Assembly: GCA_017618075.1 (NCBI GenBank) | Contig: JAFZUY010000051.1 | Span: 1 to 50,389 of the forward strand | Origin: Lachnospiraceae bacterium | Lineage (GTDB): Bacteria > Bacillota > Clostridia > Lachnospirales > Lachnospiraceae | Direction of reading: 5' to 3' | Length of the DNA stretch: 50,389 nucleotides | Shown here: in pieces, positions 4,891 through 49,524 of the stretch | Layout: every line of letters starts with the position of its first letter | Numbering within the stretch: the first letter of the stretch is position 1 | The notes under the pieces: model-generated | Database searches by the model: none | Told to the model about the DNA's origin: nothing | Seen by the model: only the letters and a program-made list of their open reading frames with translations | Position numbers and translations under genes: made by a program

Positions 4891-5167
4891 TTTTTTCACC
4901 TCCGTCTTTACAATTCTTTTCAAGATATTCTTCCAGAATATCCAAATCAATCAACACATTTTTCCTAATCTTGATATTCGCCCCAGCCATCCTTACAAGT
5001 TTTCTGAATGTGTAATAATTCAAAGAATACTGACTCGCTCCCAACTCATAAGTGGTATATCTTTTCCTTGGTCCTTTAACATACTTATCAAGATCAGGAC
5101 CTTTTCTTAAAGATGCTATCTTAGCTTTTCTTTTTTCTTCATCTGACTCTTCTTTTGATTTAGCCAT
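4883..5167 (-). CDS. DUF6462 family protein (copy 1)
   Basis: 94 residues from the ATG at 5165-5167, which has AAGGAG six bases upstream; the longer frame to 5182 begins upstream of that site and is unlikely. The N-terminus is highly charged (KEESDEEKRKAKIASLRKG), then follows the same pattern as the next gene: YTTYELGASQYSLNYYTFRKLVRMAGANIKIRKNVLIDLDILEEYLE. It is therefore a diverged tandem paralogue, first gene of the operon that continues into copy 2, the parB-like gene and the small membrane protein. Function unknown; likely a small DNA-binding protein of the mobile element. Confidence 0.65.
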   Translation of the reverse strand: MAKSKEESDEEKRKAKIASLRKGPDLDKYVKGPRKRYTTYELGASQYSLNYYTFRKLVRMAGANIKIRKNVLIDLDILEEYLEKNCKDGGEKNV

Positions 5168-5583
5168 GTGAACTCCTTTCAAAATTCAAAACCAATGTTA
5201 CTTTCACAATCTCAAATAAAAAAACACCTACTCTAGATAATCTAAAGTAAGTGCCTGTTTCATGCCGTTTGAAGAATTGTTTCTTCCCGAACTTAAACTT
5301 CACCTGTATTTTGCTGGCAGCAAAACGTGGTCTACAACAAATTCCGTCGCGTTCCACAAGCAATTTTCTTGCTTTTACATGAGTCTTCATCAGCCTTCGA
5401 CAAACTTCTCAGAAAATGCTCAAAAACGTGTCATTTGAAACATCTTCCTGATTTAGTCCATCCTTGTCCATCGTGTGTCGAATCAGTCCGTCCTGAAATT
5501 TTGACCCTTCGATTTTAACATCCTTGTCCAAATCTTTCCGAATCGTGTCGGAATACGTCAAATCGTGTCGAATCAGTCCGTCC
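5168..5583. other. 416-bp gap between the island operon and lysS
   Basis: No convincing gene. It holds a leftward terminator (5225-5253), a 17-bp palindrome TTTTGCTG-G-CAGCAAAA at 5309-5325, and the direct-repeat cluster listed separately up to the lysS stop codon. A leftward frame over 5160-5390 is open but has no ribosome site and an unusual composition, so I do not call it. The gap is the likely boundary between mobile and core DNA. Confidence 0.6.
5225..5253 (-). terminator. Intrinsic terminator upstream of the island operon
   Basis: Read leftward, a 13-bp stem (5241-5253 with 5225-5237, two G-U pairs, loop of three) is followed at once by seven U residues (5218-5224). It would stop transcripts that come from greA-lysS before they enter the DUF6462 operon, or act as a leader attenuator of that operon. 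Confidence 0.7.
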
Positions 5584-7823: not shown

Positions 7824-8768
7824 TTACAGGAGTCTGATTTCGTTCACTTTTGCCACGAATTCATCGAGCGTCTGGGTGAAGTTAATTTCCCTCCTAAAAG
7901 AAGCGGAATTCTTCATTCCGGCCGTATAAAATGCCGCGTGGGTGCGCATCTCTCTAAGCGCTCTGTACTCGTCCTTGGCCTCTATTAAAAGACGTAAGTG
8001 CTCGAGTATCATGTCGGCTATCTCGTCCTTGGAGGGCTTATACTCCTTACCCTCTGCGAGGCTTTTAAATATCCAGGGATTTCCTCTGGCCGCACGTCCT
8101 ATCATGACTCCGTCGACATTGGTTTCCGCTTTCATCTTTGCGGAACTTATAATGTCTTTGGCATCACCGCTTCCGATGACGGGAATGGGGATGCTTTCTT
8201 TTACTTCTTTTATGATGTTCCAGTCGGCTTCGCCCTCGTAAAACTTCTCTCTCGTCCTGCCGTGCACCGCTACGGCACTCGCTCCGCTCTCGTATGCCAC
8301 TTGGGCCATCTCTAAGGCGTTTATATGGTCTTTATCAAAGCCCGAGCGTATTTTTACCGTTACAGGCTTTTTCGTAGCCCCTACGAGCGCCTCAATGATT
8401 TTACCTGCGAGTACGGGGTCTTTCATGAGTGCTGAACCTTCGCCGTTGTCGACTATCTTTTTAACCGGACAGCCCATGTTCACATCGAGGATATCAAAAG
8501 GATATTCGTCAATCTTCTTTGCGGCTTCCGCCATTATCGCGGGATCTTTGCCGAAGAGCTGAAGTGAGACTGCGGATTCTTCAGGCGATATTTTTAACAT
8601 TTCAAATGTCTTTTCGTTTTTGTAGGTTATGGCCATCGCGGATATCATTTCCATGCAGACCATTCCGGCGCCCATTTTAGAGCAAATAAGACGAAAAGGC
8701 AGGTCTGTAAAACCTGCCATCGGAGCCAATATATATTCGTTTTTTAAACTGACATTTCCTATGTTCAT
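7824..8768 (-). CDS. dusB: tRNA-dihydrouridine synthase, DusB type
   Basis: 314 residues; FMN-dependent reduction of uridine in the tRNA D-loop. TIM-barrel opening LAPMAGFTDLPFRLIC, the catalytic cysteine in NMGCPVKKIVDNGEGSAL, the FMN/phosphate segment VHGRTREKFYEGEADW, and GVMIGRAARGNPW near residue 220 are all in place, followed by the helical tRNA-binding domain. It is the last gene of the leftward argF-DUF6145-coaX-8773-dusB run, four bases after the preceding stop codon, so probably co-transcribed. Confidence 0.95.
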   Translation of the reverse strand: MNIGNVSLKNEYILAPMAGFTDLPFRLICSKMGAGMVCMEMISAMAITYKNEKTFEMLKISPEESAVSLQLFGKDPAIMAEAAKKIDEYPFDILDVNMGCPVKKIVDNGEGSALMKDPVLAGKIIEALVGATKKPVTVKIRSGFDKDHINALEMAQVAYESGASAVAVHGRTREKFYEGEADWNIIKEVKESIPIPVIGSGDAKDIISSAKMKAETNVDGVMIGRAARGNPWIFKSLAEGKEYKPSKDEIADMILEHLRLLIEAKDEYRALREMRTHAAFYTAGMKNSASFRREINFTQTLDEFVAKVNEIRLL

Positions 8769-8772
8769 CTGA

Positions 8773-9186
8773 TTACTTCGAAATAACTTCCACTACGGTT
8801 TCGCCGCCGGTAAACTCATGGTTTTTACCCCATGCGGTAACATATACGCGAAGCTTTCCCGTGCCTTCGCTGACCGTAATCGAATGTCTGCTCTCATCGT
8901 CGGGACCCAGGCCTTTGATGTCAGGCACGCCTGTCGCCTGTGTGCTTTCTACCCATTCCGCTCCTAAAAGATATCCTTTTATGTTGTCTGCTTTTTCCAC
9001 TACATCGGAGAGCATGATGGTGTCGCCTTCTTTTATGGTGACGTTCTGCTTCATAATGATGCGAGGTGTGTTGGCGCGGTAAATCATGATCGAGAGTCCC
9101 GATGAGATAACCGCTACCGCGAGTAATACGCAGATGGCTGCGATTGTAATGACGATTGTTTTTGTGATTTTTTTAGTCTTATCCAT
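8773..9186 (-). CDS. Hypothetical single-pass membrane protein
   Basis: 137 residues. A lysine-rich start (MDKTKKITKT) leads into one hydrophobic segment at about residues 11-33, after which about 100 residues would face outside. The external part has a repeated beta-like character (KQNVTIKEGDTIML, SEGTGKLRVYVTAWGK, GGETVVEV) that might form a small Ig-like fold. No catalytic motif. It lies between coaX (10 bases) and dusB (4 bases) in one operon. Function unknown. Confidence 0.75.
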   Translation of the reverse strand: MDKTKKITKTIVITIAAICVLLAVAVISSGLSIMIYRANTPRIIMKQNVTIKEGDTIMLSDVVEKADNIKGYLLGAEWVESTQATGVPDIKGLGPDDESRHSITVSEGTGKLRVYVTAWGKNHEFTGGETVVEVISK

Positions 9187-34260: not shown

Positions 34261-35172
34261 TCATTTTCTCTTATATTTGAAAATATCCATGTCTGCCACA
34301 ACTGCTATCCCATTATTGATTGCCTCATCGTATGAGACATCTTCATACAAAAGTTTCTTTGTTATGCTGTTATAATCAGGCTCATAAAAACGACTGATTA
34401 TAATTTCCTTAAGCATCTTAGGAATATCGTACTCAAGCTGAGCAGAAGGATTGTTCTTTGACTGCATTCTATCCTCCCGTACCTCGTCAATCAAATCATC
34501 AAGTTCTGATGAAATCTTAATCTCCGGGAGTATTTTTGCAATATCATACAGATGCCTCGAATCCCTGTCCTGCATATCCTGAATCCTATAATCACATATT
34601 GCAAAAATCTTATCAATAAAAGTTCTCTCCAATGACTGCACCTTCATATCTACTATTGCTGCATCAAATGGTATCGGAAGTTTTATTCCTCTGTCCTTAC
34701 AAAATCTTCCAACATAACCGTCTACTGAATGAATATCGACCGGATAAACTTCCTGATAAAAACTTGTCTCTATTATAAGTTCGAGGGGATTATCACTGAA
34801 AAGTGACTCATACTCAAAAACATACTTGTTATAATTGTTTCTCGACTTAATATCATCAGGATTTGCAAGTGAAAAATCCATCCTTTCTCCAATCTCCATA
34901 ATGATATTCTTTATCTTTTTCTTTTCGGATTCAGTAAGTTTACGATTCATTGACAAATCAATATCTTCAGAAAACCTATCAATCAGACCATATGCTTTCG
35001 ATAGAGATGTTCCGCCCTTAAACACAAAAGGAAATTCACATTTAGAGAGTTCAAGAAGTATCATTGATTGAATTGTATCCTTTTCGACAACCTGCGTCAT
35101 GCGGTGTTCTTCGGAAGCAACCGTTTCAATAATCTCTTTCCATTGCTCCCTATAATCGCTATACCAACTCAC
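34261..35172 (-). CDS. AbiEii/AbiGii-type nucleotidyltransferase toxin
   Basis: 303 residues. The nucleotidyltransferase core reads FKGGTSLSKAYGLIDRFSEDIDLSM (residues 51-75): GGTSL-x-K and the DxD metal site at 70-72 are intact. The family blocks growth by adding nucleotides to tRNA or by binding NTP, and acts in abortive infection. Overlaps the upstream antitoxin gene by 14 bases. Members with this GGTSLSKAY opening form a separate branch from the Streptococcus AbiEii type. Looks full length and functional. Confidence 0.88.
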   Translation of the reverse strand: MSWYSDYREQWKEIIETVASEEHRMTQVVEKDTIQSMILLELSKCEFPFVFKGGTSLSKAYGLIDRFSEDIDLSMNRKLTESEKKKIKNIIMEIGERMDFSLANPDDIKSRNNYNKYVFEYESLFSDNPLELIIETSFYQEVYPVDIHSVDGYVGRFCKDRGIKLPIPFDAAIVDMKVQSLERTFIDKIFAICDYRIQDMQDRDSRHLYDIAKILPEIKISSELDDLIDEVREDRMQSKNNPSAQLEYDIPKMLKEIIISRFYEPDYNSITKKLLYEDVSYDEAINNGIAVVADMDIFKYKRK

Positions 35173-35776
35173 CCATTAAGCCCCCATCATAAATATTTCT
35201 ATATACCTTATCAGGATAAAATGGCAGATATTCCTTTACTACCGTAAAATCTAGTTTGACTGATGCAACATATTTTTTAAGTTTTACTGCCAACTCTGAT
35301 TGGGATATTTCACTATATTTATCAATTGCTGACATCAGATCCAAAAACTGCAATGCAGATTTATTAGTATCCGTAACATCCGCCACCGGCTTGTATACAA
35401 CTATAGTATTTCCATCTATCTCCTGTTTTCTCTGTTTCGTAGTCGCTTCATTACTGCAAATCTCATAACAAGACGGATTTTGCGTAGTAAATCCATACTT
35501 ATTGGCTAGCTGTAATCCCGTAATATATCCAACAGTTTTTCCATCGACAATCAGGTACTTTTTTTCAATGTACTTATCTATCGAAATTTTTCCTTTTGTA
35601 CCAAGAATTGTAACATAAGAAAGATAATATACGCCGTTATATAAACGCTCCAATCTTCCTTCATCCACTAGCCTCTTCATCTCCTGTCTAAGATAATCCT
35701 TGGAATCACCCGGCAGTTCGCTTAAGAAGATGGGTTCGCCATTTTTATAGTTATCGATGATATAATCGTATACCAT
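35159..35776 (-). CDS. AbiEi-type antitoxin (DUF6088-like)
   Basis: 205 residues. N-terminal winged helix: FLSELPGDSKDYLRQEMKRL, then LVDEGRLERLYNGVYYL, which is the antitoxin/transcription repressor opening; then the DUF6088-like segment VGYITGLQLANKYGFTTQNPS. Known role of the family: neutralises the AbiEii toxin (type IV) and represses the operon. Upstream partner of the nucleotidyltransferase gene; own promoter at 35818-35846. Confidence 0.85.
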   Translation of the reverse strand: MVYDYIIDNYKNGEPIFLSELPGDSKDYLRQEMKRLVDEGRLERLYNGVYYLSYVTILGTKGKISIDKYIEKKYLIVDGKTVGYITGLQLANKYGFTTQNPSCYEICSNEATTKQRKQEIDGNTIVVYKPVADVTDTNKSALQFLDLMSAIDKYSEISQSELAVKLKKYVASVKLDFTVVKEYLPFYPDKVYRNIYDGGLMGELV

Positions 35777-35968: not shown

Positions 35969-36562
35969 TTATTTTTTCTTCTTATAATTCCCATCCAGTC
36001 TTCCGTATGCGATTACATTTCCGGTATTGCCGTCTGCATCGGTATTTAAGCCTTTGTAAATATCATTGATACTGTTTCCGCCGCCGTCAAATCCCATATA
36101 AAACTTACCCGGCTCGTTTTTAAGAGCAAACACAAATACGGAGTAAGTATGCGTCGCACCCAAGGGCGGATACGGTCCGACATATCTTGAACCTTTGGCG
36201 CCTTTCCCTGCGATTGCTCCCTCTGCCAGAGAAGTATCACTCGTGGAAACATCCATATGAAGCCAGTTGCCGTCTATCATAATAACCTGATACTGCGTGG
36301 CACCATCAACCGCTTCCCACGATAAATCAGGCGAGATATTTTCGCCGTGATCCGTATTGGAAATCTTATCCATCCATTTGCCGTTCTTCACGCATTTTGA
36401 AGTAACCTTAAAAGTCGTAACATCCTCAAAAAAGATCGTATCAATGTAGTTGTCAGACTTCTTCATAATCGACGCCTGAGAACCGCAGCCGATAAAAAAT
36501 GATAAAACAAGCAACGCCGAAATAAGTGTAATTAGTTTCTTCCTCAAAATTGTTCCCCTCAT
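35969..36562 (-). CDS. YbhB/YbcL-type PEBP lipoprotein
   Basis: 197 residues. Lipoprotein signal with lipobox at FFIGC (Cys26) after a Leu/Ile-rich helix, so lipid-anchored outside the cell. The phosphatidylethanolamine-binding-like domain shows ENISPDLSWEAVDGATQYQVIMID, WLHMDV and GYxGP-like SRYVGPYPPLGATHTYSVFVFAL. Bacterial members bind small ligands but their role is unclear. Single gene between a terminator and the surface-protein operon. Confidence 0.9.
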   Translation of the reverse strand: MRGTILRKKLITLISALLVLSFFIGCGSQASIMKKSDNYIDTIFFEDVTTFKVTSKCVKNGKWMDKISNTDHGENISPDLSWEAVDGATQYQVIMIDGNWLHMDVSTSDTSLAEGAIAGKGAKGSRYVGPYPPLGATHTYSVFVFALKNEPGKFYMGFDGGGNSINDIYKGLNTDADGNTGNVIAYGRLDGNYKKKK

Positions 36563-36581: not shown

Positions 36582-36620
36582 AAGCACTCCGCGCCGGGTA
36601 ACTCCATGCACGAAGTGCTT
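36582..36620 (-). terminator. Terminator of the pilus operon
   Basis: Read leftward: AAGCACTTCG (36611-36620) pairs with CGGAGTGCTT (36582-36591) with one G-U, loop of 19, then TTTATAAAA. It follows the surface-protein stop codon by 37 bases. Confidence 0.65.
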
Positions 36621-36656
36621 TTGCTTTTGATTAAGTTATTTAGTTTGTCAGACTGA

Positions 36657-39600
36657 TTACTCTTCCTCTTCCCTGCGACGTCTGAACATAATGACCGGAG
36701 GTACTATCAGTCCAACCAATATCGCACCGAAACCAAACATCATAAAGAACGGTTTGTAGTTGGTGGTATAGCTGGTGGGCGCAGGAAGAAATCTTCCTTC
36801 ATTTGTAAATACTACCGTCATACTATTTGAACCCGGATTATACGCATTTTCTTCTGGAAATTGGCTTTCCCATTTCGACATACCTGACTCGCAGGATGTA
36901 AATGTGAAAGAACGTTCCTGGTTATTAGTTTCAGCTTCTATAGTTCCTTCTGTGATTTGTTTATCAACCGTTGTGTCATAACCGGATTTTTCAGTCTGCG
37001 TAATCTTTAATGTGTATTTGTAATCCGAAGTAAAATACTTTTGAGTATTACCTGAACAGAAAAAAACAGAACCAGTATTAACAATCACTCCATTACTATC
37101 TATTACATCAATTATAACATTATATACAGGAGGACTATAAACAGTAGATTTTACTACTTTAACCGCAACCGTATACTCTTGATTATTCTTCAACGAAATA
37201 GGGAAACTTCCCCATTTCTCATTTGGTGCCCATGGATAGTTTTCGTTTGGCTTCGGACTACCTGAAATCTTACCAACGCATAATTCATCTAATACTTCTA
37301 TGGTATATTCAAATTCATCTTCCGGATTTCCTCCCACCACTTGATTTAAAACAGTGAAAGTAAAATACTGTGGCAGATTTTGATTATCACCCCAAGAGGT
37401 AACCAATGTCACGTTACTTAAAATGCGTTGAGTAAAATCAAATGTATTATTTTTTATAACATTATCCGTCGCTTTTTTCGAGTTACTTCGACAAGTCTGT
37501 GTATCACCATTTAAATACAGCCAACTCAAGAAACCCCATGAGGATTTGTCCGTATGCGGAGAAGGGTCTGCAGGCTTGGGAACATATTCTCCCTTCGCCA
37601 TAGAATACGATATTATACCTGTCGCACTTTCATAGAAACAATATAATGCCTGCTGTTCAAGACCCGGTCCTTTCCATGTATGTAGTTTAGAACCATTATA
37701 TTTAATATCAAAAGAAACAGTTACTGTATCACTCCATACAGCATACAAAGTCCGTCCATATGGAGGATTATCCTCAAAGTCCCACAAGTAATCACTCTTA
37801 ATCTTATTAAGTATGATATCCCCAGAATCAGGAGCAACAGAAGTGCTTCCCAAAGTCACAGGAACCTCAGAACTGAAATCGGTCTGTGCTGCGATATCAG
37901 CATTGGTTGTCCATCCTAAGAATATTTTTCCGTTTCGTTGCGGATCTGCCGGTTTATATCGGTTAAGTGCAGCTATCCCATCCTCTTGAATAATATAAAT
38001 ATCTTCATCGGTTTGAGAATGAGAAAACCAAGTACTTTGCTCGTTCCAAACGTCAGCGCCGTTTTTATCAAATATAACAGAAGGAATTTCCTCCTCAGTA
38101 TATGTAATAATAATTCCATCAGGATCTGTATTTAATGTTCCTGTATAATGTGAAAGATCACCATATTGAACATTCTGATCACCCATACCATACGGATTTT
38201 CCGTTTTAAATACACCATTGACACTCAGTTTATAACCTGGATGATTATTTGTCGTCTCTGCTGTAATTAAATCTATTCCCGGGGTAGCTCCAGGGAGTAC
38301 AACTTTGACTATTCCGTTTTCACCATTTTCTTTTTTGGGAACTGTAATATGTGTCGTTATAGCCTTACGATCAAAGCCCTTCGCCTCATTTATAATGCTT
38401 ATGGTACCGCCTGTTCCAGAAAGATCTATTTCCAAGTCTTCGTCAGTAGTGTTTATAAAGGTTGCATAGACCATTGGCTCCCACATAGCATATAATATAT
38501 CATCGCTTTCTCTGGTAACACCTGCAACAGAATCCAAAGCAAATGTCGGAATATATGCTTTACCAGTTTTAGGGCTGGTAGGATCAGTATTTTCATCAAA
38601 ACCAATCAACAAATACTTATCATCATTTGAGAAGAAGTCTGCATATCCATTCAAATGCAGAGCAAGGTTTGACTGAACATCGCCGATTAAAATTTGTACA
38701 GGATTTCCTGATTCATATTTGATATCTTGATTCCCGGGGCCTCCAAGTGAAGGGAATGAATTACCAACATTTACAATGCTTCCGCCGTATAACTGATTGG
38801 GATCTAAAGTCAAATTGGTAACCTCAGGGCGACGATGAGATGTATCTTCGCGTTCATAAAATGCCTGCATATGTATTACATTCCCAACTGAATTAGACTC
38901 TGAAGAAAGTTCTGAATCTATAATAAAATTTTCTCCCGGTTGATAATAATTTAAATCCTTATACGGAACCCAGTTAATGTAAGTATGCGTTCCTGAATTA
39001 TCCGTAAATGTCTTCGTTGGCTCTGTTTCATCTTGTTTAACTACACGCCAACCACGAAAAACCCAACCGGAAGTAACATTGGTTGGAGCATGAAGAATCA
39101 ACATAGGCGCCTGATCGGCATAAAGCTGTATAGAAGGATCTTCGGGATCAAACCAAGATCTTGTATTTAACTGACCTATTACCGCCGTAACATTTCCATT
39201 TTCCTCATCAAAATAATACGGATTATATTGTACATAATATCCGCCTTCCAAACGCCACATAGCACGCAGTTCCAAAGGACCCGTTAATGGATCGTTAAAG
39301 TTGTATGGCATAGAAGCTACAGATCCATTGGGCTGAACCTTATACCATCCCATAAATGTGTAATGTTCACCATTAACAGGACGATAATAATAATCTGCAT
39401 AGGTATCAATAAAATCTTGTTTACTGAGTTTCTGTACGCCCTCCCAATAATTCCAATCAAAATTCGGATCGTCAAAGATGCTGCTATACCAATTATAATA
39501 AGTATCTATTTCCGACTCTTTAACGTACACCGCATTACGCAGTTCAGCCGGAAGACCCCAGTTTCCTTCTGATTCAACACCCTTTCGCTGAGTATTAATA

Positions 39601-42600
39601 TAATAATACTTATCTCCACTATATGTGGGCAGTTCTTTATCTGTGATTTTTATAAACTCTCTATCTGTTGTATATTCACCCACAGGAGTTCCATAGTCTC
39701 CCGTGAAATATGTTGAAACGGAAGTATTCTCTCTATGATCGAGCACACCACCATTCGGGTCTATTTTAACAGTATATTGAAGAACCTTAAGGACTGGATA
39801 CAATACAACATTCTGACTAGGCATTTTTTCGTTTTCAAAATCAAAACGTTGTCCAATACCTTCAGCATTTGTATACCAACCAGCAAAATAATATCCATTA
39901 GGGACAACTACTTCGTTTGTATATTTATTCGCATCTGCAAGAGACTGGGTATAATAATATGAATCTTCTTTCATATTGTTTTCAATATTGAAAGTAAGTG
40001 TATACTGCTTAGGTCTGTAAAAGAAATGAATATTATACTCTAAATGCTGCGGATTATTAAAGCCCGATGGTTGATCATTGTCATAACAACTGTATACCAG
40101 TTCATATCCGTCTATTGTATCCGACAACTGGAACTGTGGTTCTACGTTGGATAGAACCATATCGGAAGAAATCTTTATAAAATGATTTCCTAATATAGCA
40201 CTCTTATCCCCTTTAGTTTTTTCCGCACACCATGTTGTTTGCTTATAATCCTCAAAATCATCACCATCCTTTATATTCAGGTTTGTATCTGTAGGATCAT
40301 ATGTACCATCAATTGCTTCATAATAAACATGATAATTCTTAAATCTGTTTTGATTCGTTGCCTCACCAAAATAAGCCACAAGATGATGAACCTGGTTATT
40401 TACAACGCCGTCACCTGCTCTGTTTGTACAAAGTTCAGCAGACATATACTCATAAACGCCATTAACATCGGGGTTATTTCCGTTAGGATTTCCTGCAGTT
40501 GAACGTCCATTGGCTATTTTAGTATAAAGGGTATCGTAATAGGCCGTCCAAATATATAAGGTCTTGGCTTTATTGCTATCGTTTGATGCTCTCCAAGTTT
40601 CAGTGAAACTAAAATACTCAGTATTTGAAGGCGAAGGCCATTTGTTTCCAATATAAGCTCCGTATTTTGCCTCAATTATGTACAATTTTTGATCGTTTGA
40701 ATCACTCGTATCAGGAACGTAGCTTCCACTTATATTCGCTAGAGTTGTCTCATAACTCGAATCGTACTCTTCATAATTTCCCGGGGCATCGGTTTTACCC
40801 AAAGGATAATACCTCATTACAAAATCATTATATTCGTCACCAGTTTTTGAATAGTATGATGTTCCGCCTCTTCCATCACGATTCAATAGTTGCGTAACTT
40901 TTGCATCATTATACATATACTCAATCCAGTTAGGATATGCCAACCAGTTTGACGTTGTCTCTTTTTGGTTTCCTCTGTTTTTTAAATAATGATCTCGACC
41001 GATATGAAATACGAGTTTAAAAGTTTTGCGCTCATAATAAACATTATAAGTCGTACTACCATCACCTTTTATGATTACGGATGCATCAGATAAAGTTGTA
41101 TTTAAATCATAAAATTTCTCTTCACCGGAAAGAACTGCTCCTATATCATTAAGGTATTCCGTTTCAAGAATTCCACTAGGTCTGTTTCCATCAGCGTAAC
41201 TTCTTAAGGTATCTAAGAAGAGTTCAGAACCCGAGCCCAAAGAAGTTCCCAGTTGAGAGTTTAAGTCAGTTGTATGAACAACTTCCACTGCAGCTGCTGT
41301 ATAATTATTTTTTGGATCTGCAGGCGCAATATATCCTTCTTCCTGCGCATTTTCTGTCCAATAAACAACTGTAATCTGTGAATCGGAAGAAGCCCATTTC
41401 GCACTGAGTTTTAAGCGGTCAAGTGGATCAAAGAAACGCAATTTACCATTAGATGCTTCAAATAGTTTATACCCTGAGTCATCATTGTGAAGCACTCCAG
41501 TACCGTCACCATTATCTGTAACGCTCCATATTCCTGAATTATATACAGAAACACTCTCATCATCAGGATTGATTACAGGATTTGAAATCTGTACAGCTGT
41601 TGTATTAACTGTAAGTTTATGCGTAATATATTTTTCACCTTCAGTTGTGCTCTCGATTGTAACATAACTTACTTCCACATCAGCCGGAGTATCAAGGTTA
41701 GTTATCTCTCCTGTAACTGGATGTATTTGGGCGAACGCATACCATCCGTCAAAGGTGTATCCTGTTCTCTTTGAACTGGAAAGAGTCGTAAAAACATTCT
41801 GATTAACCACATCTGATGTCTCCGGTGTAGTTGCTCGGCCCCATGCTTCTAGGAAACGAGAAGGAACGTAGGAAGCTCCGCTTCCACTGATGCCCGCAAA
41901 AAAATCTACCCATCTTGCCTCTGTAAAGAGCGGATACAAATCTATAGAATCCGTATTAGTCATATCGGCTTGCAAGTATATACCATCTCTTGGAGGATCT
42001 ATCAAAGTTGCCCCCGAACTATCTACTGTCTGTTTCTGAACCCACTGTCCAAGGGTATTATCGTAATATTCCCAACCTACAAACACTAGATGAACAGGAT
42101 CTGTACTGCTGGAGCGAATATCACTGATTTTTACATCAGTTGAAGTAGCACTACCCAAAGCAATCATTTTACGTGTCATCAAATTATTTGGAGTTTCACC
42201 TCTAGGGCGTAACATAAAGTTAATAAAATGATAATTCTCAAAAATAGGAGCAAGGAAGACATTAACATTGCCATCCTTATCCACTGTTCCAGATCCGGAA
42301 ACACCATTTAATTCCCAACCAACAATATCTCCTACTTTGACGTTGCTTCCTGCGGTAATAGAAATCGGAGACTCAAAAATAATATGGTCAGGATTACCTG
42401 GCCAGGTATAATACAATTTCTGATCAGATGTACCAATTCCATAATCATCCGTTATTCCGCTAATCACCTTAGGGTCAACAACATACCAACCATAAAAATA
42501 CTTGTCATTCTGATTTTCGGGGTCTGCAAATAATTCCAAACTTTCACCATCTTTTAAGATTTGGGTCGTTTGGTCATCTTCGTTCTTGTTTTTGAAAATA

Positions 42601-43682
42601 TAGGGATTACCTTTATAATAAACAGTTGAATCTGTAATTTCTTCAACGCCTATATTACTTATAAAATGAAACTTAACTCTGGGATTCTCAACAATATCAT
42701 TCTCATGACCGATAACTACATAAACAGAGAAACTATCCGTACTAAACTCAACAGTTTCTTCGTTTACGATTGTATCAACATCGTAAACCAAATAGTTTTC
42801 GTCGTTTTTGTCTTCAACGAAATGGAGAACGTTTAAGTTCGCAATTTCGTCTAAGGGCACGCCAACAACGCGGATGCTGACATCCACGTTTCCTGTAGGT
42901 TCATATTCGATATTTTCATCATTTTCATCGACGATCTTTATGTCGAATACTTTTGAGAAAACAATATCTTTAGTATCAACTCCGACTTTGCTTGCAGACT
43001 CTTCAATATATTCATCATATCCTTCGTCTTCGGATACTAGTTCAGTAACCTGAAGTTTCGTTCCCTCCATCGGAATGCCGGATTCATTGGTGTATTTTAC
43101 GTTAGTCTCGTATGTGTTGCCATCTGAAGCAACTATGCTTGCAGTCAAATTCGTTTCTGTTATCAGAGATATTTCCTCGATAAACTCAGGAATTTCTTCC
43201 TGAACAGTCTGGATTTCGGGAGCTTCGGCTGTTGTGTCTTCCGTTGTCTGTGCATTAGGAGTTTCGGCTGTTACATCTTCCTGAACTGTCTGAGCATCGG
43301 GAGTATCTACAGTTGCATCTTCATGAACTGTCTGATCATCAGGGGTTTCAACTGTAACATCTTCCTGAACTGTCTGATTTTCAGGGTTTTCTACTGTAGC
43401 ATCTTCCTGTGTCTGAACATCGGGAGTTTCTGCTGTAGCATTTTCGCCTTGAGCTTCGCCTATAGCGTCTTCACCCTGGACTTCGTTTGTATCTTCAATT
43501 GTATCTTCTGTCTCAACAGTCTGGATTTCAGGAGTCTCATTAATCAGCACCTCCTGCAGTCCTTCGGGCACGGAAATAACTCGTGTGTCATCTCCCTCTG
43601 CCAAAGCAGTAATCGGGGTCTGACCTACGAGGCATATAAACATACATGCAATTATCCAGGCTGTCAGTAAACGTTTCTTCAT
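36657..43682 (-). CDS. Giant sortase-type surface protein, likely pilus tip adhesin
   Basis: 2341 residues. Signal peptide to TALAEG (about residue 30), then an acidic region with 14-residue tandem repeats (about 90-161). From 165 a domain with TVxFGPEAGIP-like text (NVKYTNESGIPMEGTKLQV) is followed by many InlB-type beta repeats, each closing on FxGWY (GYTFDGWYAFA, YYFAGWYTN, HYTFMGWYKV, KIFLGWTTN). The C-terminal stalk (about 2100-2300) resembles DUF7601/FctA isopeptide domains. The end has LPAPTSY, a membrane helix and RRRREEEE, i.e. a non-standard sorting signal. Last gene of the operon after the sortase. Its size and position suggest the adhesive tip or a side subunit; no ligand can be named. 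Confidence 0.85.
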   Translation of the reverse strand: MKKRLLTAWIIACMFICLVGQTPITALAEGDDTRVISVPEGLQEVLINETPEIQTVETEDTIEDTNEVQGEDAIGEAQGENATAETPDVQTQEDATVENPENQTVQEDVTVETPDDQTVHEDATVDTPDAQTVQEDVTAETPNAQTTEDTTAEAPEIQTVQEEIPEFIEEISLITETNLTASIVASDGNTYETNVKYTNESGIPMEGTKLQVTELVSEDEGYDEYIEESASKVGVDTKDIVFSKVFDIKIVDENDENIEYEPTGNVDVSIRVVGVPLDEIANLNVLHFVEDKNDENYLVYDVDTIVNEETVEFSTDSFSVYVVIGHENDIVENPRVKFHFISNIGVEEITDSTVYYKGNPYIFKNKNEDDQTTQILKDGESLELFADPENQNDKYFYGWYVVDPKVISGITDDYGIGTSDQKLYYTWPGNPDHIIFESPISITAGSNVKVGDIVGWELNGVSGSGTVDKDGNVNVFLAPIFENYHFINFMLRPRGETPNNLMTRKMIALGSATSTDVKISDIRSSSTDPVHLVFVGWEYYDNTLGQWVQKQTVDSSGATLIDPPRDGIYLQADMTNTDSIDLYPLFTEARWVDFFAGISGSGASYVPSRFLEAWGRATTPETSDVVNQNVFTTLSSSKRTGYTFDGWYAFAQIHPVTGEITNLDTPADVEVSYVTIESTTEGEKYITHKLTVNTTAVQISNPVINPDDESVSVYNSGIWSVTDNGDGTGVLHNDDSGYKLFEASNGKLRFFDPLDRLKLSAKWASSDSQITVVYWTENAQEEGYIAPADPKNNYTAAAVEVVHTTDLNSQLGTSLGSGSELFLDTLRSYADGNRPSGILETEYLNDIGAVLSGEEKFYDLNTTLSDASVIIKGDGSTTYNVYYERKTFKLVFHIGRDHYLKNRGNQKETTSNWLAYPNWIEYMYNDAKVTQLLNRDGRGGTSYYSKTGDEYNDFVMRYYPLGKTDAPGNYEEYDSSYETTLANISGSYVPDTSDSNDQKLYIIEAKYGAYIGNKWPSPSNTEYFSFTETWRASNDSNKAKTLYIWTAYYDTLYTKIANGRSTAGNPNGNNPDVNGVYEYMSAELCTNRAGDGVVNNQVHHLVAYFGEATNQNRFKNYHVYYEAIDGTYDPTDTNLNIKDGDDFEDYKQTTWCAEKTKGDKSAILGNHFIKISSDMVLSNVEPQFQLSDTIDGYELVYSCYDNDQPSGFNNPQHLEYNIHFFYRPKQYTLTFNIENNMKEDSYYYTQSLADANKYTNEVVVPNGYYFAGWYTNAEGIGQRFDFENEKMPSQNVVLYPVLKVLQYTVKIDPNGGVLDHRENTSVSTYFTGDYGTPVGEYTTDREFIKITDKELPTYSGDKYYYINTQRKGVESEGNWGLPAELRNAVYVKESEIDTYYNWYSSIFDDPNFDWNYWEGVQKLSKQDFIDTYADYYYRPVNGEHYTFMGWYKVQPNGSVASMPYNFNDPLTGPLELRAMWRLEGGYYVQYNPYYFDEENGNVTAVIGQLNTRSWFDPEDPSIQLYADQAPMLILHAPTNVTSGWVFRGWRVVKQDETEPTKTFTDNSGTHTYINWVPYKDLNYYQPGENFIIDSELSSESNSVGNVIHMQAFYEREDTSHRRPEVTNLTLDPNQLYGGSIVNVGNSFPSLGGPGNQDIKYESGNPVQILIGDVQSNLALHLNGYADFFSNDDKYLLIGFDENTDPTSPKTGKAYIPTFALDSVAGVTRESDDILYAMWEPMVYATFINTTDEDLEIDLSGTGGTISIINEAKGFDRKAITTHITVPKKENGENGIVKVVLPGATPGIDLITAETTNNHPGYKLSVNGVFKTENPYGMGDQNVQYGDLSHYTGTLNTDPDGIIITYTEEEIPSVIFDKNGADVWNEQSTWFSHSQTDEDIYIIQEDGIAALNRYKPADPQRNGKIFLGWTTNADIAAQTDFSSEVPVTLGSTSVAPDSGDIILNKIKSDYLWDFEDNPPYGRTLYAVWSDTVTVSFDIKYNGSKLHTWKGPGLEQQALYCFYESATGIISYSMAKGEYVPKPADPSPHTDKSSWGFLSWLYLNGDTQTCRSNSKKATDNVIKNNTFDFTQRILSNVTLVTSWGDNQNLPQYFTFTVLNQVVGGNPEDEFEYTIEVLDELCVGKISGSPKPNENYPWAPNEKWGSFPISLKNNQEYTVAVKVVKSTVYSPPVYNVIIDVIDSNGVIVNTGSVFFCSGNTQKYFTSDYKYTLKITQTEKSGYDTTVDKQITEGTIEAETNNQERSFTFTSCESGMSKWESQFPEENAYNPGSNSMTVVFTNEGRFLPAPTSYTTNYKPFFMMFGFGAILVGLIVPPVIMFRRRREEEE
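43199..43420 (-). repeat. 42-bp tandem repeats in the surface protein
   Basis: Five to six imperfect copies of a 14-residue unit QTVQEDVTVETPDD (42 bases each) near residues 89-161. Some copies are one residue shorter (QTQEDATVENPEN, QTTEDTTAEAPEI). Confidence 0.8.
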
Positions 43683-43696
43683 AGTTTCCTTTTGAC

Positions 43697-43727
43697 GGTG
43701 CCAGGCACGCTTCGCAAGCCAGGCATC
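43697..43727. repeat. 31-bp hairpin repeat, copy 5
   Basis: GGTGCCAGGCACG then CTTCG then CAAGCCAGGCATC. Same fold as the core copies with GAA loop; sits between the sortase and surface-protein genes, inside the pilus operon. Confidence 0.8.
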
Positions 43728-43745
43728 ATCCTTTATCTTTTACGA

Positions 43746-45215
43746 TTATTCGTCTAATCTAATTCCGTTATTTTTTTCTTCGTCTTTTTTACTCTTTTTA
43801 TATCTTGTAAGAATAAAATCTACGAGCAGGCTGCCAATCATCAGAAGCAGCATAAGAGGCGTCCATTTGTCGATTAAAACCATCGGCAGACGCATATCTT
43901 CTGTCAGAATGAATGCAATAATCGAGGCAATCGAAAGCAGGACTTCAATTATAATACCTGCGATAAATTTGCGGGTAAATACTTTCAGCCTGTAGAACAA
44001 TTCCTCTACTGCTTCGCAGAATTTGTCTTTTGAAACATATCCGTTCTCGCTCTTTTGAGTAGCAACTCTCATGATTCTTTCACGTTCTGTCCAGTCTTCG
44101 GGAGTCATATCCTGTGCTTCGAAGAGCGATTCTTTTGATTTATTAACTTTACGCATTTTATGAATGCGTCCGTATTTCTTTCTTAAGAAAAAGATCGGTA
44201 CCAGTATGTAAACTGTGATGATGAGGCAGATAAGGTTTACCAGCGCCCATGCTTCACGGCCATATGAACTTCCACCGGGAACAAAGGGATCGGTAATATC
44301 GACTTTGCCGTCCTCGTCCTTGTCTTTTTCATCAGGAGTAACAGGATTGTCGGGCTTTGTTACATCAGGCTTGTCGGGGTTATCGGGCGTAATTTCTTCG
44401 CCTGTGGAAGTGCCGGGTTTGCCGATGGTAATGCCTGTATTATCATCGGGGTTGGATGATGTGTCTGTCTGGGACGAGGGTATTTCTTTTAGGGTAAAGA
44501 AAACAACCAGACGTCCGTTGGTAGTTGCATCTCGACATGTTGAAAGAGCAATGATTTTTTTAGCATTGTTCAATGCCGAAGGCTTGATGTAACGTGAATA
44601 TCTGTTAACATATTCAACAACATCGTTGAAACTAAGGCTTCCGACATTGTAAACGCTGTCTTCGTAAGCATCTGTATTAACTACGGCCCAAAGTTCCAAT
44701 TTATATGTACCGGAGAGACACGAAAATGTGCCGCCGGTATGATTGTCAAAGAAATCTTTATCGAGGAATTTATCCAGATCGCCGAACATGGCGCCGTTAT
44801 CCATATGATGTCCGTAGATCATGATGTAGTCGTCGCTTAGATCGGATTTGTTGTATGCGGACATATAGATGGAGCCTGTCAGGCTGTGGTTGCCTTCCGT
44901 ATCATGGTACGCATAATAAAGTTCATCGCCATCCTGCATCAAAGGATAGTCTATATGCGTGCCGTCAATCTGAAGCCATCCTCTGTAGTCCTTGTTCTGA
45001 AGCGCCAGGTTTTCCTGTACCTCAACCGACTGGACTTCCTCGGATTTAAGTCCTCCTGAGGAGAATGCTCTGGTCTGCGTATACAACTGTTCGTAGATTG
45101 AGTATCCGCTGAATATTACAAGCAAAAACCCTAAAAGAAGGGAAACTGTAACGAGAACACGGATGCCGATTGCGCTAAGCTTATCTATCAGGTCTTTTTT
45201 ACTTTTTGATTGCAT
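43746..45215 (-). CDS. Class B-type pilus sortase with C-terminal membrane extension
   Basis: 489 residues. N-terminal membrane helix at about 20-42, then the sortase barrel with catalytic His136 (MIYGHHMDNG), Cys227 (IALSTCRDATT) and Arg235 (NGRLVV), all in the class B spacing. After residue 245 comes a Pro/Asp/Thr-rich linker of about 75 residues, then three or four membrane helices (about 325-346, 415-437, 450-475) with a cytoplasmic stretch between. Class B enzymes are usually about 250 residues, so the extension is unusual. It would polymerise the pilin and attach the giant protein. RBS AAAGGAG before the ATG; follows the SipA-like gene by 36 bases. Confidence 0.88.
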   Translation of the reverse strand: MQSKSKKDLIDKLSAIGIRVLVTVSLLLGFLLVIFSGYSIYEQLYTQTRAFSSGGLKSEEVQSVEVQENLALQNKDYRGWLQIDGTHIDYPLMQDGDELYYAYHDTEGNHSLTGSIYMSAYNKSDLSDDYIMIYGHHMDNGAMFGDLDKFLDKDFFDNHTGGTFSCLSGTYKLELWAVVNTDAYEDSVYNVGSLSFNDVVEYVNRYSRYIKPSALNNAKKIIALSTCRDATTNGRLVVFFTLKEIPSSQTDTSSNPDDNTGITIGKPGTSTGEEITPDNPDKPDVTKPDNPVTPDEKDKDEDGKVDITDPFVPGGSSYGREAWALVNLICLIITVYILVPIFFLRKKYGRIHKMRKVNKSKESLFEAQDMTPEDWTERERIMRVATQKSENGYVSKDKFCEAVEELFYRLKVFTRKFIAGIIIEVLLSIASIIAFILTEDMRLPMVLIDKWTPLMLLLMIGSLLVDFILTRYKKSKKDEEKNNGIRLDE

Positions 45216-45251
45216 CCGCCTTCTCCTTTCTGTTTATTTTATGATCTTAAA

Positions 45252-45857
45252 TCATAACTTGCTTCGTCTGATTACGTTGATGACTGTTCCAAGCAGTTCT
45301 TTCTTTTTCACCGGCCCGAAATACCGGCTGTCCAATCCTTCTTTTCTTCCGTCCACCAGAATGAAGTATTCATCTTCTCCCAGCGTTAACGGGTAAGTCA
45401 CCATATCATCCCTCTTGGGTGTCTCGGAATAAATCATATCTTCAATAATTGAGTTTCCGTTTACGATAGGGTGATTTGATTCACTTATTTCAATCGTGTC
45501 TCCCGGAGCGCCTATTACTCGGCCTACCAGCAGCCGCTTTTTCTGCTCGCCGGGAATTACCTTTTCAAAAATCACAAGTTCCCTAAAAGAAGCATCTCGG
45601 TCCAAACGATAGAAAATCAGCAAATCTCCTGCGTCCACACGTGGCGACATATCCATATTCGGCATATGCGTGATTCCGATTATCTTAAAAAACAATACCC
45701 AGATCACCAGCAGGAATATTGCAAGATAAATCAAAAACCAATGAAAATTCTTAAAGCCTTTTTCGTCTCTGGCTATTTTTTTCATCAGCTTTTCGGTATC
45801 ATTTCTGTTCTGTTCATTTGTATTTTCCAGTCTGTTTTCTTCGTTTAAGCCCGTCAT
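45252..45857 (-). CDS. sipA: SipA-like inactive signal peptidase of the pilus locus
   Basis: 201 residues. Signal-peptidase-I fold with one N-terminal membrane helix (about 39-61). The normal SMxPTL..GD box is DMSPRVDAGD: Asp69 takes the place of the catalytic Ser. The Lys of the KRVIGxPGD box is Gly112 (VGRVIGAPGD). The third box VDGRKEGLDSRYFGPV is kept. The same Asp/Gly pair is known from SipA of the Streptococcus pyogenes pilus locus, a protein without peptidase residues that is needed for pilus assembly. Position between pilin and sortase genes supports the same job. The internal Ser71 is not aligned with the catalytic one. Confidence 0.85.
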   Translation of the reverse strand: MTGLNEENRLENTNEQNRNDTEKLMKKIARDEKGFKNFHWFLIYLAIFLLVIWVLFFKIIGITHMPNMDMSPRVDAGDLLIFYRLDRDASFRELVIFEKVIPGEQKKRLLVGRVIGAPGDTIEISESNHPIVNGNSIIEDMIYSETPKRDDMVTYPLTLGEDEYFILVDGRKEGLDSRYFGPVKKKELLGTVINVIRRSKL

Positions 45858-45886
45858 TTTGCGTCCTCTAACCCATTTTTAAGGTA

Positions 45887-45930
45887 AAAGACCCGATAGC
45901 TGTAAAAAACTTTATAGCCACCGGATCTTT
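45887..45930 (-). terminator. Internal terminator between pilin and sipA
   Basis: Leftward 15-bp stem (45916-45930 with 45887-45901, three G-U pairs), 14-base loop, then TTTT. No promoter is evident before sipA, so partial read-through would set a high pilin to sortase ratio. Confidence 0.65.
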
Positions 45931-45972
45931 TTTCTCAACTAATCATATTAGCTGCCCTAATCAGCATTTGCA

Positions 45973-47355
45973 TTATGCTGTTTCCTTTTTGTTTGTTTTA
46001 TTGTATATAACTAAACCAATTGTAATTAAGAGGATGCCACCTAAAAGTACTAATGCATAAGGAGCAAATCTTACAACGAAACCAGTAGGTGAAACAACGG
46101 ACAAAGTGTTGGTCCATGCAGTGGTTGTATCAGCTGAGCCTACTGCAGCAACTGTAGTTGCATTATCAAGATTGGAAATAATAGTTGCATTATCTCCGGC
46201 CTGAACCTGAACATCTGTATAACTCTGAGCTGTGGCTGCTGTTATTGTAGCACTTACAGTATAAACATCATAAGTATCATTATTCTCCTGTACAGTTGCT
46301 GTTACACCTGCAGGAATTCCATAGAAAGTAACTGAACCATCATCAGTCAGTTTAAGTGAAGAAGAATTACTCAAAGCACCAATTGTAGTTGTATCTGCAC
46401 TTGAAAGAGAAGCTGTTGTTGCAGTAGCAGGAATTCCATTAGTTGCAGTGTAATGGATTGTTGCTGCTGTAGCATTCGGGCTTGTAAATACAATTTGGAA
46501 CGGGAACTGATGACCTATTTCAGCCAATGTTCCTTCAATATCCTTTGTTACAACAAGATTGTATGTATTATATTCATCACCACCTGTTGCTCCAACCCAA
46601 CCATTTGTTTTTGCAACATTAGGAGTATTGTCGATTGAAGTGTCTTCATTCTGTGAATCAGGACTCCACAAAACATAGCCATATATTACTCTATCTCCAA
46701 CAGCTGTTGCATCACCAGCTGTTACATCTGCTTGAACTGCCTGACGAACATATACATCAAGATAACGAACCGATTCATATGTTGTATCCTGATGAGAAAC
46801 ACCAGCCTTTGCAAGTGTATTGGTTGTATCCTCAGCTTCAGTAATCTTATAACGATAAATACCTGCGTGAGTAAATGTGTTTGGAGTAAAGGTAATCTGG
46901 AATCCACCATAATAAGAAGTTCCTGTAGTTGCGGCAGCTGTAGGCTGTGTAATAGTCACAGCAGTATCTGTTCCATCGTTGTTATAGCCAGAAGTTGTAG
47001 CTGAACTGAAACTTACGGTCTTACTTGTCGCATCCAGAGCACTAGTATCTCCAGTATATACAATACCTACATGATTTCCACTATCGGTAACAGTTGTTCC
47101 GGCAGCAACGGCTTCCGCAGTAATGGTGTAATTATACCCTACTGTCGGCAAGTAAATGTTTCCACCAGTGGTGTTATACACTTTAAGTTCTTTCACAATA
47201 GTAACCACATTACCCTGGGCTGTAGCAGAATCATCAATATCGCCTTTAATACCATTAGAAAGACCCGTGGGAGCTGCGAATACAGTTGCATTCATTGCCA
47301 GCGCCATCGCGAATGTCAGCAGGACAGCGCCAATTTTTCGAAATCCTTTTTTCAT
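45973..47355 (-). CDS. Major pilin, FctA/Spy0128-like
   Basis: 460 residues from the ATG at 47353-47355, which has GGAGG eight bases upstream (the ATG at 47370 overlaps that site). Signal peptide to about ATVFAAPTG. First domain: VVTIVKELKVYN holds the likely isopeptide Lys, and GGFQITFTPNTFTHAGIYRYKITEAED the partner Glu, the layout of the streptococcal pilin isopeptide domain. A second domain (about 260-400) starts LVVTKDIEGTLAEIGHQFPFQIVF, DUF7601-like. The end is VVSPTGF, a 20-residue helix and NKTNKKETA: a sorting signal like the EVPTG of Spy0128, not LPXTG. Ala/Thr-rich. First gene of the operon, strong promoter. Confidence 0.9.
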   Translation of the reverse strand: MKKGFRKIGAVLLTFAMALAMNATVFAAPTGLSNGIKGDIDDSATAQGNVVTIVKELKVYNTTGGNIYLPTVGYNYTITAEAVAAGTTVTDSGNHVGIVYTGDTSALDATSKTVSFSSATTSGYNNDGTDTAVTITQPTAAATTGTSYYGGFQITFTPNTFTHAGIYRYKITEAEDTTNTLAKAGVSHQDTTYESVRYLDVYVRQAVQADVTAGDATAVGDRVIYGYVLWSPDSQNEDTSIDNTPNVAKTNGWVGATGGDEYNTYNLVVTKDIEGTLAEIGHQFPFQIVFTSPNATAATIHYTATNGIPATATTASLSSADTTTIGALSNSSSLKLTDDGSVTFYGIPAGVTATVQENNDTYDVYTVSATITAATAQSYTDVQVQAGDNATIISNLDNATTVAAVGSADTTTAWTNTLSVVSPTGFVVRFAPYALVLLGGILLITIGLVIYNKTNKKETA

Positions 47356-47454
47356 AATTCCATCCTCCAATTGAATTTCTTTTACAATTAGTTATTTTTC
47401 AATTAATAAACAATTCTGGTAATAGTAACCCCAATTATTTTTTAATGATAGTTG

Positions 47455-47483
47455 ATTGTAGCATTATTTTTATTTTATGTCAA
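47455..47483 (-). promoter_or_regulatory. Promoter of the pilus operon
   Basis: Leftward TTGACA (47478-47483), 17-base spacer, TACAAT (47455-47460). Leader of about 93 bases to the pilin ATG. Confidence 0.7.
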
Positions 47484-48454: not shown

Positions 48455-48985
48455 TTAAATGTGGTTTAGTGATTTCAAATACATAATTAATTTCTCAGTA
48501 ACAGCCGGTATTTCCTCTCCTATCCAATTCTTCTTTGAATCATTCAATTTATCGATATATCTTTTAGAAGAGAAAGTTCTTGTAATCCTGCGTACTACCG
48601 CATTCATATCATTCTCTTTCATACCCGGATTAAAAATTATAAGTGTATCTAAGTATCTCGATAGTTTTTTATTATCAATCTTGTCCGAAAGGTAATACAT
48701 ATCAAAGATATCCTTGTATCTTGTAGAATTCGGCCCGAACTTTAAAAGAGATTTAAGCTTTTCGGTGAACATCTGCTCCTTGGAGTTGATAAGCAATGTT
48801 GCGCTGCGTGCATCATTGGATATGCTTCGCATCACTACCCCTCCTTTTATTGTAATGTTCTTATTAAGAGAACTTTCAGATATTGCTTTTAAAACAACAT
48901 CCTGGCAAACCTTCGCTTCCGCATTATCGTCGGCATAGCCGTCTAAGTTGGCCCGTAGTATCATTTCCTTTAATGTGGGCATCAA
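48455..48985 (-). pseudogene. AbiEii-type toxin with its catalytic middle deleted
   Basis: 176 residues in one open frame. The start is intact (LKEMILRANLDGYADDNAEA, then KGGVVMRSISNDAR at 47-60) and so is the end (INSKEQMFTEKLKSLLKFGP..STRYKDIFDMYYL). In the family these parts are separated by the DxD metal site and a nucleotide-binding region of roughly 60-100 residues; here the text jumps from DARSAT to LLINSKEQ at about 48795-48802. The deletion kept the frame. The product lacks metal ligands and is presumably inactive as a toxin. Starts four bases inside the antitoxin stop region, as in intact operons. Confidence 0.75.
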
Positions 48986-49524
48986 AAAACCTCCATCTCG
49001 AGTGCATCGTTAATCATTTTGCTTTTCGGAAAGCTATCGGCGTAATCCTGAATCCTCTCAATATCCAAATCATAAATAATGTTTCTGTAACTACTTATTA
49101 TCTCTTTATAATAATCAAAAGGAAATTTATTCTTAAACCGAAGCAGTTCTATCAGCATTCTTTCTTTATCATATATTCTGATTGTTGCATCCCTTCGTTC
49201 CATAGTCGTCACTCCAAGATTTAATATATCCGAGAGAACATAGTATTGATGAATTCTCGCATCGTTAATATAAATAGCGTGTTTATCCGTTGCGATATGA
49301 AATCTATCCGGAACAACATCTGTCAGACCATGATAATAAAATGCACTGTCCATAGTCATTATCCCCTTGGGATATTTAAAAGTAATAACTGCAAGCGATG
49401 AAACTTCAGGAATATCAGAATATACACCTTTTTCGATTTGATACAACTTTCCATCAGATATTTGCTTTTTTATCTGATAATCAGATTTCCACCTGTTAAG
49501 GCAATCAGAATAAGACAAAAGCAT
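48982..49524 (-). CDS. AbiEi-type antitoxin/repressor
   Basis: 180 residues, full length. N-terminal winged helix in YSDCLNRWKSDYQIKKQISDGKLYQIEKGVYSD, then the AbiEi_4 domain: FKYPKGIMTMDSAFYYHGLTDVVPDRFHIATDKHA, and ERRDATIRIYDKERMLIELLRFKNKFPFDYYKEII. Binds an operator to repress the operon and counters the toxin. Ribosome site AAAAGGAGG. Retained next to a toxin that has lost its core, with an intact promoter and operator. Confidence 0.88.
   Translation of the reverse strand: MLLSYSDCLNRWKSDYQIKKQISDGKLYQIEKGVYSDIPEVSSLAVITFKYPKGIMTMDSAFYYHGLTDVVPDRFHIATDKHAIYINDARIHQYYVLSDILNLGVTTMERRDATIRIYDKERMLIELLRFKNKFPFDYYKEIISSYRNIIYDLDIERIQDYADSFPKSKMINDALEMEVF

Follow-up and report, generated by a model that had tools for sequence, protein, structure and literature searches.

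A predicted SipA-assisted class B sortase pilus locus in a Lachnospiraceae genome and its relatives in Clostridia

We have analyzed a 50,389 nucleotide contig of a Lachnospiraceae bacterium (JAFZUY010000051.1, assembly GCA_017618075.1), which is called the window in what follows. The genome assembly has 2.44 Mb in 54 contigs and is 89% complete. Four genes are found on its minus strand, from 47483 to 36582, in the order pilin, SipA-like protein, class B sortase and adhesin, as shown in Table 1. They are separated by 115, 36 and 63 nucleotides, respectively, and form an operon-like unit. A first-pass annotation had described this region as similar to the FCT pilus locus of Streptococcus pyogenes. 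All four gene types which it named were found again on the minus strand by open reading frames, profiles and residue checks, and the ends which it proposed are close to a promoter-like site and to a terminator-like hairpin. A consensus scan found 56 promoter-like and 12 terminator-like sites, compared with 39.5 and 7.6 in shuffled sequences. Single sites of either type are weak evidence, because the real counts are only modestly above the shuffled ones.

Table 1. Features of the predicted pilus locus, with positions in the window.
Feature	Coordinates	Strand	Description
Promoter-like site upstream of the pilin gene	47455..47483	-	TTGACA-17-TACAAT, TG before second hexamer; consensus scan, 11/12 positions
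Major pilin, FctA/T-antigen-like	45973..47370	-	Signal peptide; two domains of isopeptide type; VSPTG sorting signal at the C-terminus
SipA-like pseudo-signal peptidase	45252..45857	-	One N-terminal membrane helix; Asp69/Gly112 replacing Ser/Lys
Class B sortase; its C-terminal tail (FILTED domain) spans the membrane several times	43746..45215	-	TIGR03064, NF052597
Giant surface adhesin, 2341 amino acids	36657..43682	-	Listeria-Bacteroides repeats; C-terminal PAPTS sorting signal
Terminator-like hairpin 3' of the adhesin gene	36583..36595	-	Consensus scan, 5 pairs; weak

The pilin open reading frame has 465 amino acids when it is counted from a TTG at 47370. The likelier start would be an ATG five codons downstream (47355), which has a GGAGG ahead of it. 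Its sorting signal is followed by a hydrophobic stretch and a basic tail. The C-terminal half corresponds to DUF7601 in Pfam (49.9 bits, cut-off 27), which has been classed as a CnaB-like isopeptide domain (PMC12617251). In an alignment which used 36 of the 48 pilin matches, Lys276, Glu362 and Asn421 are invariant (36/36), and Lys254, a candidate acceptor lysine, is kept in 33. S. pyogenes T-antigens come first in both profile and fold searches. In the profile search they are followed by the C-domain of Cpa and then by PitB of pneumococcal pilus islet-2, which is second in the fold search. NCBIfam profiles assign no name to this protein. The isopeptide domains and the xPTG signal of the first-pass annotation are supported by these results, with the bonds themselves predicted. 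The protein appears to be a major pilin of the FctA kind with its two domains of isopeptide type, a feature of FCT-type loci.

The SipA-like protein shares the S26 signal-peptidase fold. S. pyogenes SipA ranks first for it in profile and fold searches, with a profile score of 132.2 bits (PDB 4N31) versus 61.8 for the best true signal peptidase. In alignments, Asp69 and Gly112 occupy the columns of the catalytic Ser and Lys, as had been noticed from the sequence. A family alignment was made with 67 of 95 SipA sequences. The protein has no catalytic Ser or Lys and is not placed among active type I signal peptidases. It has the fold, the closer profile, the missing Ser-Lys dyad and the clustering with pilin and sortase genes of the SipA/LepA group. 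Its function in the clostridial host would be of the SipA type. In S. pyogenes, removal of sipA abolishes pilus polymerization, and no peptidase activity was seen for the protein (PMC4049620). It has been described as a cofactor (PMC11987632). SipA homologues have been named in several streptococci, some of them with an intact dyad (PMC4049620).

The sortase scores 163.3 bits with TIGR03064 (cut-off 153.75) and 72 bits with NF052597. The catalytic-type residues His136, Cys227 and Arg235 are present, in agreement with the class B assignment made earlier, and polymerase activity is predicted. Hydrophobic spans are found in its tail at positions 325-343, 412-441 and 446-464. The only Pfam match of the adhesin, which was considered as a possible thioester tip adhesin like Cpa, is PF09479 (37.7 bits). 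Its C-terminus has LPAPTSY, a hydrophobic stretch and an RRRR tail, and it is probably a pilus tip or a co-displayed adhesin. Loci L025, L032, L033, L034 and L035 likewise have a giant gene after that of the sortase. We found no FctB-like base pilin: there is no other open reading frame of at least 80 amino acids with a sorting signal on the minus strand between 36583 and 47370.

Relatives of the SipA-like protein are sporadic. They are found in 11 of 200 genomes of the same family (E 1e-25), in 13 of 391 genomes of the class (E 1e-32) and in 7 of 398 genomes of the phylum, always including the genome studied here. Among the phylum-wide matches, G341, G180, G468 and G346 are ordinary Ser/Lys signal peptidases, while G492 and G350 are of the SipA type. 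A scan of named genomes provided the best 80 of 86 loci, many of them from rumen and gut Clostridia assemblies. They are loci and not genomes: the pairs L063/L087, L064/L068 and L088/L095 each come from one assembly. The scan pattern required Asp, so the number of loci with Asp in this sample is uninformative. The class-wide sample (12 loci besides the window) and the same-family sample (11 loci, window included) were not selected for the residue pair.

The distribution of this pair in the three samples is uneven. Asp/Gly is found in 8 of the 11 same-family loci, the others having Asp/Asp, Glu/Gly and Thr/Arg. Only one of the 12 class-wide loci has it; the rest have Ser/Gly (3), Gly/Ala (2), Thr/Arg, Asp/Leu, Ser/Arg, Ala/Gly, Gly/Gly and Glu/Gly. 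In the 80 named loci the Lys column contains Gly in 48 cases, Cys in 16, Ser in 9, Ala in 4, Leu in 2 and Asp in one. The general-base Lys is absent from all 80, as well as from the 12 class-wide and the 11 same-family loci. The phylum-wide search added one Ser/Arg relative (L106) and one Ser/Lys relative (L111), both in one locus. A pilus locus, L137, has two relatives, at 4899-5468 and 8440-8997: one is Ser/Arg, and the other (8440-8997) is an intact Ser/Lys protein. They are perhaps one inactive and one active copy. Changes between Asp/Gly and other pairs number at least 6 in a careful tree or 8 in a quick tree, and changes at the Lys position at least 10 or 17.

Other residues are held. 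We compared the alignment columns of the 80 named loci and S. pyogenes SipA with those of ten true signal peptidases. Arg84 is present in 80 of the 80 loci and in one of 9 true signal peptidases, Thr146 in 79 and in none of 10, and Arg197 in 79 and in none of 8. Each of the three is found in all 12 class-wide loci, and all of them in S. pyogenes SipA. Gly61 is present in 80 of 80 loci and in none of 8 signal peptidases, and in 10 of the 12 class-wide loci. Weaker marks of SipA are Ala76, Tyr83, Leu85 and a Thr at 194. By our own count from the alignment, the three main residues become Arg63, Thr119 and Arg169 if Asp69 is numbered as Asp48. They more likely define the working surface of SipA than the drifting Asp69 and Gly112 do. 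The earlier statement that the protein is not the result of simple decay agrees with the constraint on its sequence across a wide family.

We built a hidden Markov model from eight sortases found in these loci, and with it a class B-type sortase was detected in 77 of the 80 named loci, downstream of the SipA-like gene and on its strand. Their spacing is below 400 nucleotides in 54 loci and from 1.15 to 2.9 kb in 23. All 12 class-wide loci have a linked class B-type sortase, 7 of them in short flanks and 5 after a wider fetch. The His, Cys and Arg residues are kept in 84 of 87 sortase rows, a count which includes repeats of the same loci and does not cover the class-wide sortases. Two rows have gaps there, and in L016 all three residues are replaced. 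In this last locus (L016:6812-8280), an Asp/Gly SipA-like protein with a long N-terminal extension adjoins the altered sortase homologue; by its residues this looks like a pseudo-peptidase beside a pseudo-sortase. For two SipA-like genes, in Oribacterium parvum (L099:7905-8468) and O. sinus (L100:7899-8468), no class B-type sortase was found within about 8 kb, and a small gene coding for a charged protein of 102 amino acids precedes the former in L019, which is the same locus as L099. These two proteins possibly act outside pili.

The spacing of both genes allows the classification of the loci in two layouts. In the first one (23 of 80, also L018, L020, L022, L023 and L132-L137) a gene lies between the SipA and sortase genes. 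In the neighbourhoods listed it is a pilin gene. Upstream, 17 of the 23 encode a large protein which has a PTG-type signal. In L018, L020, L023, L132, L133, L134 and L137 the sortase is followed by a small protein whose signal is KTG or QTG; no such protein was found after it in L022, L135 and L136. The sortase frames of the 23 loci, from stop to stop, have 252-326 amino acids. In the second layout, to which the window and 54 of the 80 loci belong, both genes adjoin, and uncut sortase frames have at least 387 amino acids. A tail related to that of the window is found in 38 of the 54 loci and in none of the 23. The other 16 gave no match, 7 of which run off the available sequence. The layout switches once on the quick tree, in which the states of eight rows, including S. 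pyogenes, were set by hand.

The S. pyogenes FCT-2/3/4 loci (Cpa, SipA, FctA, the class B sortase SrtC, and FctB) share with the window a two-domain FctA-type pilin, a SipA-type pseudo-peptidase, a class B sortase and a -PTG signal. The likeness to FCT pili in the first-pass annotation stands as regards the homology and linkage of these genes, and does not extend to gene order, to the tailed sortase or to a base pilin. The FCT order is tip, sipA, pilin, sortase and base, whereas in the window it is pilin, sipA, sortase and adhesin. The sortase has a membrane-spanning tail, unlike in FCT, and the 2341 amino acid protein with Listeria-Bacteroides repeats takes the place of Cpa; no gene corresponds to FctB. 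We have not classified the locus as an FCT pilus, because its gene order differs and the base pilin is missing. It nevertheless appears to work like one and to be a close relative of it. An order closer to FCT (tip, SipA, pilin and class B sortase, with the small KTG/QTG protein) is found in the seven relatives mentioned above. S. pyogenes SipA/LepA (PDB 4N31, 4K8W) differs in that its residue pair is not kept across the clostridial family, and true signal peptidases, which have the same S26 fold, differ from the window protein in having the dyad, while Arg84, Thr146 and Arg197 are of the SipA type. Pilus islet-2 of S. pneumoniae and S. oralis (PitA, SipA, PitB) has been named as related, and PitB comes after the T-antigens for our pilin. 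Such pili are already known in Clostridia: in C. perfringens VR-10B, from necrotic enteritis, pili are made by a locus that combines a class B sortase and a signal peptidase (PMC8088525). Its pilins are CnaA, FimA and FimB, unlike those of the window, and the likeness is one of published description only. We found no paper on Lachnospiraceae loci or on the tailed (FILTED) sortase, although most subscription papers were outside our coverage.

It is highly probable that the product of this locus is a covalent pilus, assembled by a class B sortase with the help of a SipA-type protein, of the kind known from FCT-2/3/4. The pilin, the SipA-like protein and the sortase are, judging from their sequences, homologous to FctA, SipA and class B sortases, respectively, and their genes travel together. 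This homology, together with the linkage to a class B-type sortase seen in 77 of the 80 named loci, excludes a chance assembly. We infer polymerization, the positions of the bonds, the loading of the adhesin and the scaffold role of SipA. After export, the VSPTG signal would keep the pilin in the membrane, and the two pilin domains would be locked by isopeptide bonds: Lys276-Asn421 with Glu362, and probably Lys60-Asp265 with Glu178. Cys227 of the sortase would cut after the Thr of SPTG and link this residue to the following pilin through a lysine, for which Lys254 is the best candidate. The adhesin would be loaded by the sortase through PAPTS. The SipA-like protein, without its Ser-Lys dyad, would cleave nothing and would serve as the membrane-bound assembly factor which keeps pilin or sortase productively arranged. 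In the branch of the window, the sortase gene lies beside the SipA gene, the sortase has its own membrane-spanning tail and the operon has no base pilin.

Several points weigh against the reading of the locus as a SipA-assisted pilus. For this organism and its near relatives, in which no pilus is known, all the evidence is sequence, and the fold match of the pilin has a large root-mean-square deviation (5.6). L092, L099 and L100 have SipA-like genes without a class B-type sortase within the examined flank, according to the hidden Markov model. L111, on the SipA side of the tree, keeps Ser and Lys. Arg84, Thr146 and Arg197 were chosen from the same family and tested again only on loci found by similarity to it. 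Published pull-downs showed no contact of SipA with pilin or sortase, and the cleft-blocking mutant V99R still polymerizes pili (PMC4049620), so a simple peptide-holding role of SipA is doubtful. The place of S. pyogenes SipA, which has a long branch, is also unsettled. In the careful tree (45 rows) all SipA-like proteins, this one included, are split from true signal peptidases. The approximately unbiased (AU) test rejects neither its transfer to the signal peptidases (p-AU 0.177) nor its union with the branch of the window (p-AU 0.317). Its placement in the quick tree (101 rows) looked decisive and did not pass its own constraint test, as the tree scored higher when this SipA was constrained to the true signal peptidases; the thinned, careful tree was built instead. 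Both trees left out L014, L015, L019 and L020, which recur as L027, L069, L099 and L104, and L011, which repeats L021. No further streptococcal-type SipA was added, because a search of plasmids with the S. pyogenes SipA segment (1e-8) gave a single match, a Geobacillus signal peptidase. Since the tree leaves this question unsettled, common descent is argued from profile, fold and shared gene setting.

Other explanations have been considered. The sortase and the SipA-like protein might only anchor single surface proteins to the wall, the pilin-like protein and the adhesin, with no polymer. We find this unlikely. The class B sortases studied in S. aureus and B. anthracis do anchor rather than polymerize (PMC3019223), and the absence of a base pilin and of an NCBIfam name for the pilin would fit such a role. 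On the other hand, the pilin resembles the polymerizing T-antigens and PitB in profile and fold, its candidate acceptor lysine is kept in nearly all relatives, and the C. perfringens locus does build pili.

The two remaining explanations concern the residue pair. The first-pass annotation took the exact Asp/Gly pair as the sign of a chaperone mechanism shared with S. pyogenes SipA, and Asp/Gly is in fact the commonest pair near the window and in the Asp-selected sample. We rejected it as a mechanistic signature: it is rare class-wide, Gly is replaced in 32 of the 80 named loci, and the pair changes repeatedly on the trees. In S. pyogenes, SipA mutants D61A, D61S and D61A/K98A still polymerize pili, and Asp and a nearby Lys vary in SipA of other species; the Gly position was outside the mutants assayed there (PMC4049620). 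Because these residues drift among relatives and Asp mutants are functional, the pair is not the mechanism, and a conserved mechanistic role for it is very improbable. There is equally little probability that the protein works as a signal peptidase by means of an unusual dyad, either based on Asp or shifted, and processes the pilin or the adhesin. It shares the fold of these enzymes, and one pilus locus does contain an intact Ser/Lys relative (L137:8440-8997). Nevertheless, the Ser position may be Asp, Glu, Thr, Ser, Gly or Ala, and the Lys position Gly, Cys, Ser, Ala, Leu, Asp or Arg, which is unlike a catalytic dyad, and S. pyogenes SipA showed no peptidase activity in the work cited above.

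Some other features of this genome and of related sequences should be noted. The only other sortases of the Pfam sortase family found in the 89% complete assembly are on contigs C37 (L114) and C43 (L116); they are class B-like and fall under the class B cut-off. A second signal peptidase, on C2 (L024:3996-4580), has Gly at the catalytic Ser position and keeps Lys. About 0.9 kb downstream of it, beyond a single intervening gene, is a normal Ser/Lys signal peptidase (L024:5468-6031). Genes for AbiEii-type toxins (PF08843) flank the pilus operon on both sides, at 34261-35776 and 48455-49524 of the window. Each adjoins a possible partner gene without a Pfam match, and the right-hand copy is short (176 amino acids). 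A phosphatidylethanolamine-binding protein (PEBP) with a lipoprotein-like start is coded on the same strand at 35969-36562, 94 nucleotides past the adhesin gene. Plasmid and phage collections contain no close copy of the SipA-like gene: the 181 plasmid and 14 phage records, of which 15 and 10 rows were listed, are all below 60% identity. The best phage-collection row among the matches listed is H18 (35.6% identity, 1e-15). The Finegoldia magna plasmid pFMC has a signal-peptidase gene (L117:6959-7456) and, at a distance of about 4 kb, a very large gene (L117:11498-14438) whose product is annotated as an FctA domain-containing protein.

Pili of this kind in Clostridia are represented by one or two cases in print. 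A wider proposal, which we regard as possible rather than probable, is that these cases belong to a large clostridial branch of pili built by a class B sortase with the help of SipA, and that this branch probably predates the streptococcal pili and exceeds them in variety. In the sub-branch of the window, SipA and a tailed sortase would act as one unit, which strings together pilins of the FctA type and a giant adhesin and uses no base pilin. The general base would have been lost before diversification, and Arg84, Thr146 and Arg197 would mark the scaffold surface. How SipA helps a class B sortase to build pili rests on a few streptococcal sequences, and the clostridial family adds natural variation. 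It separates the drifting positions of the former active site from what is held: the Lys is gone in nearly all members, and the three residues are kept. The tailed-sortase layout in rumen and gut Clostridia may affect attachment to the host or to feed.

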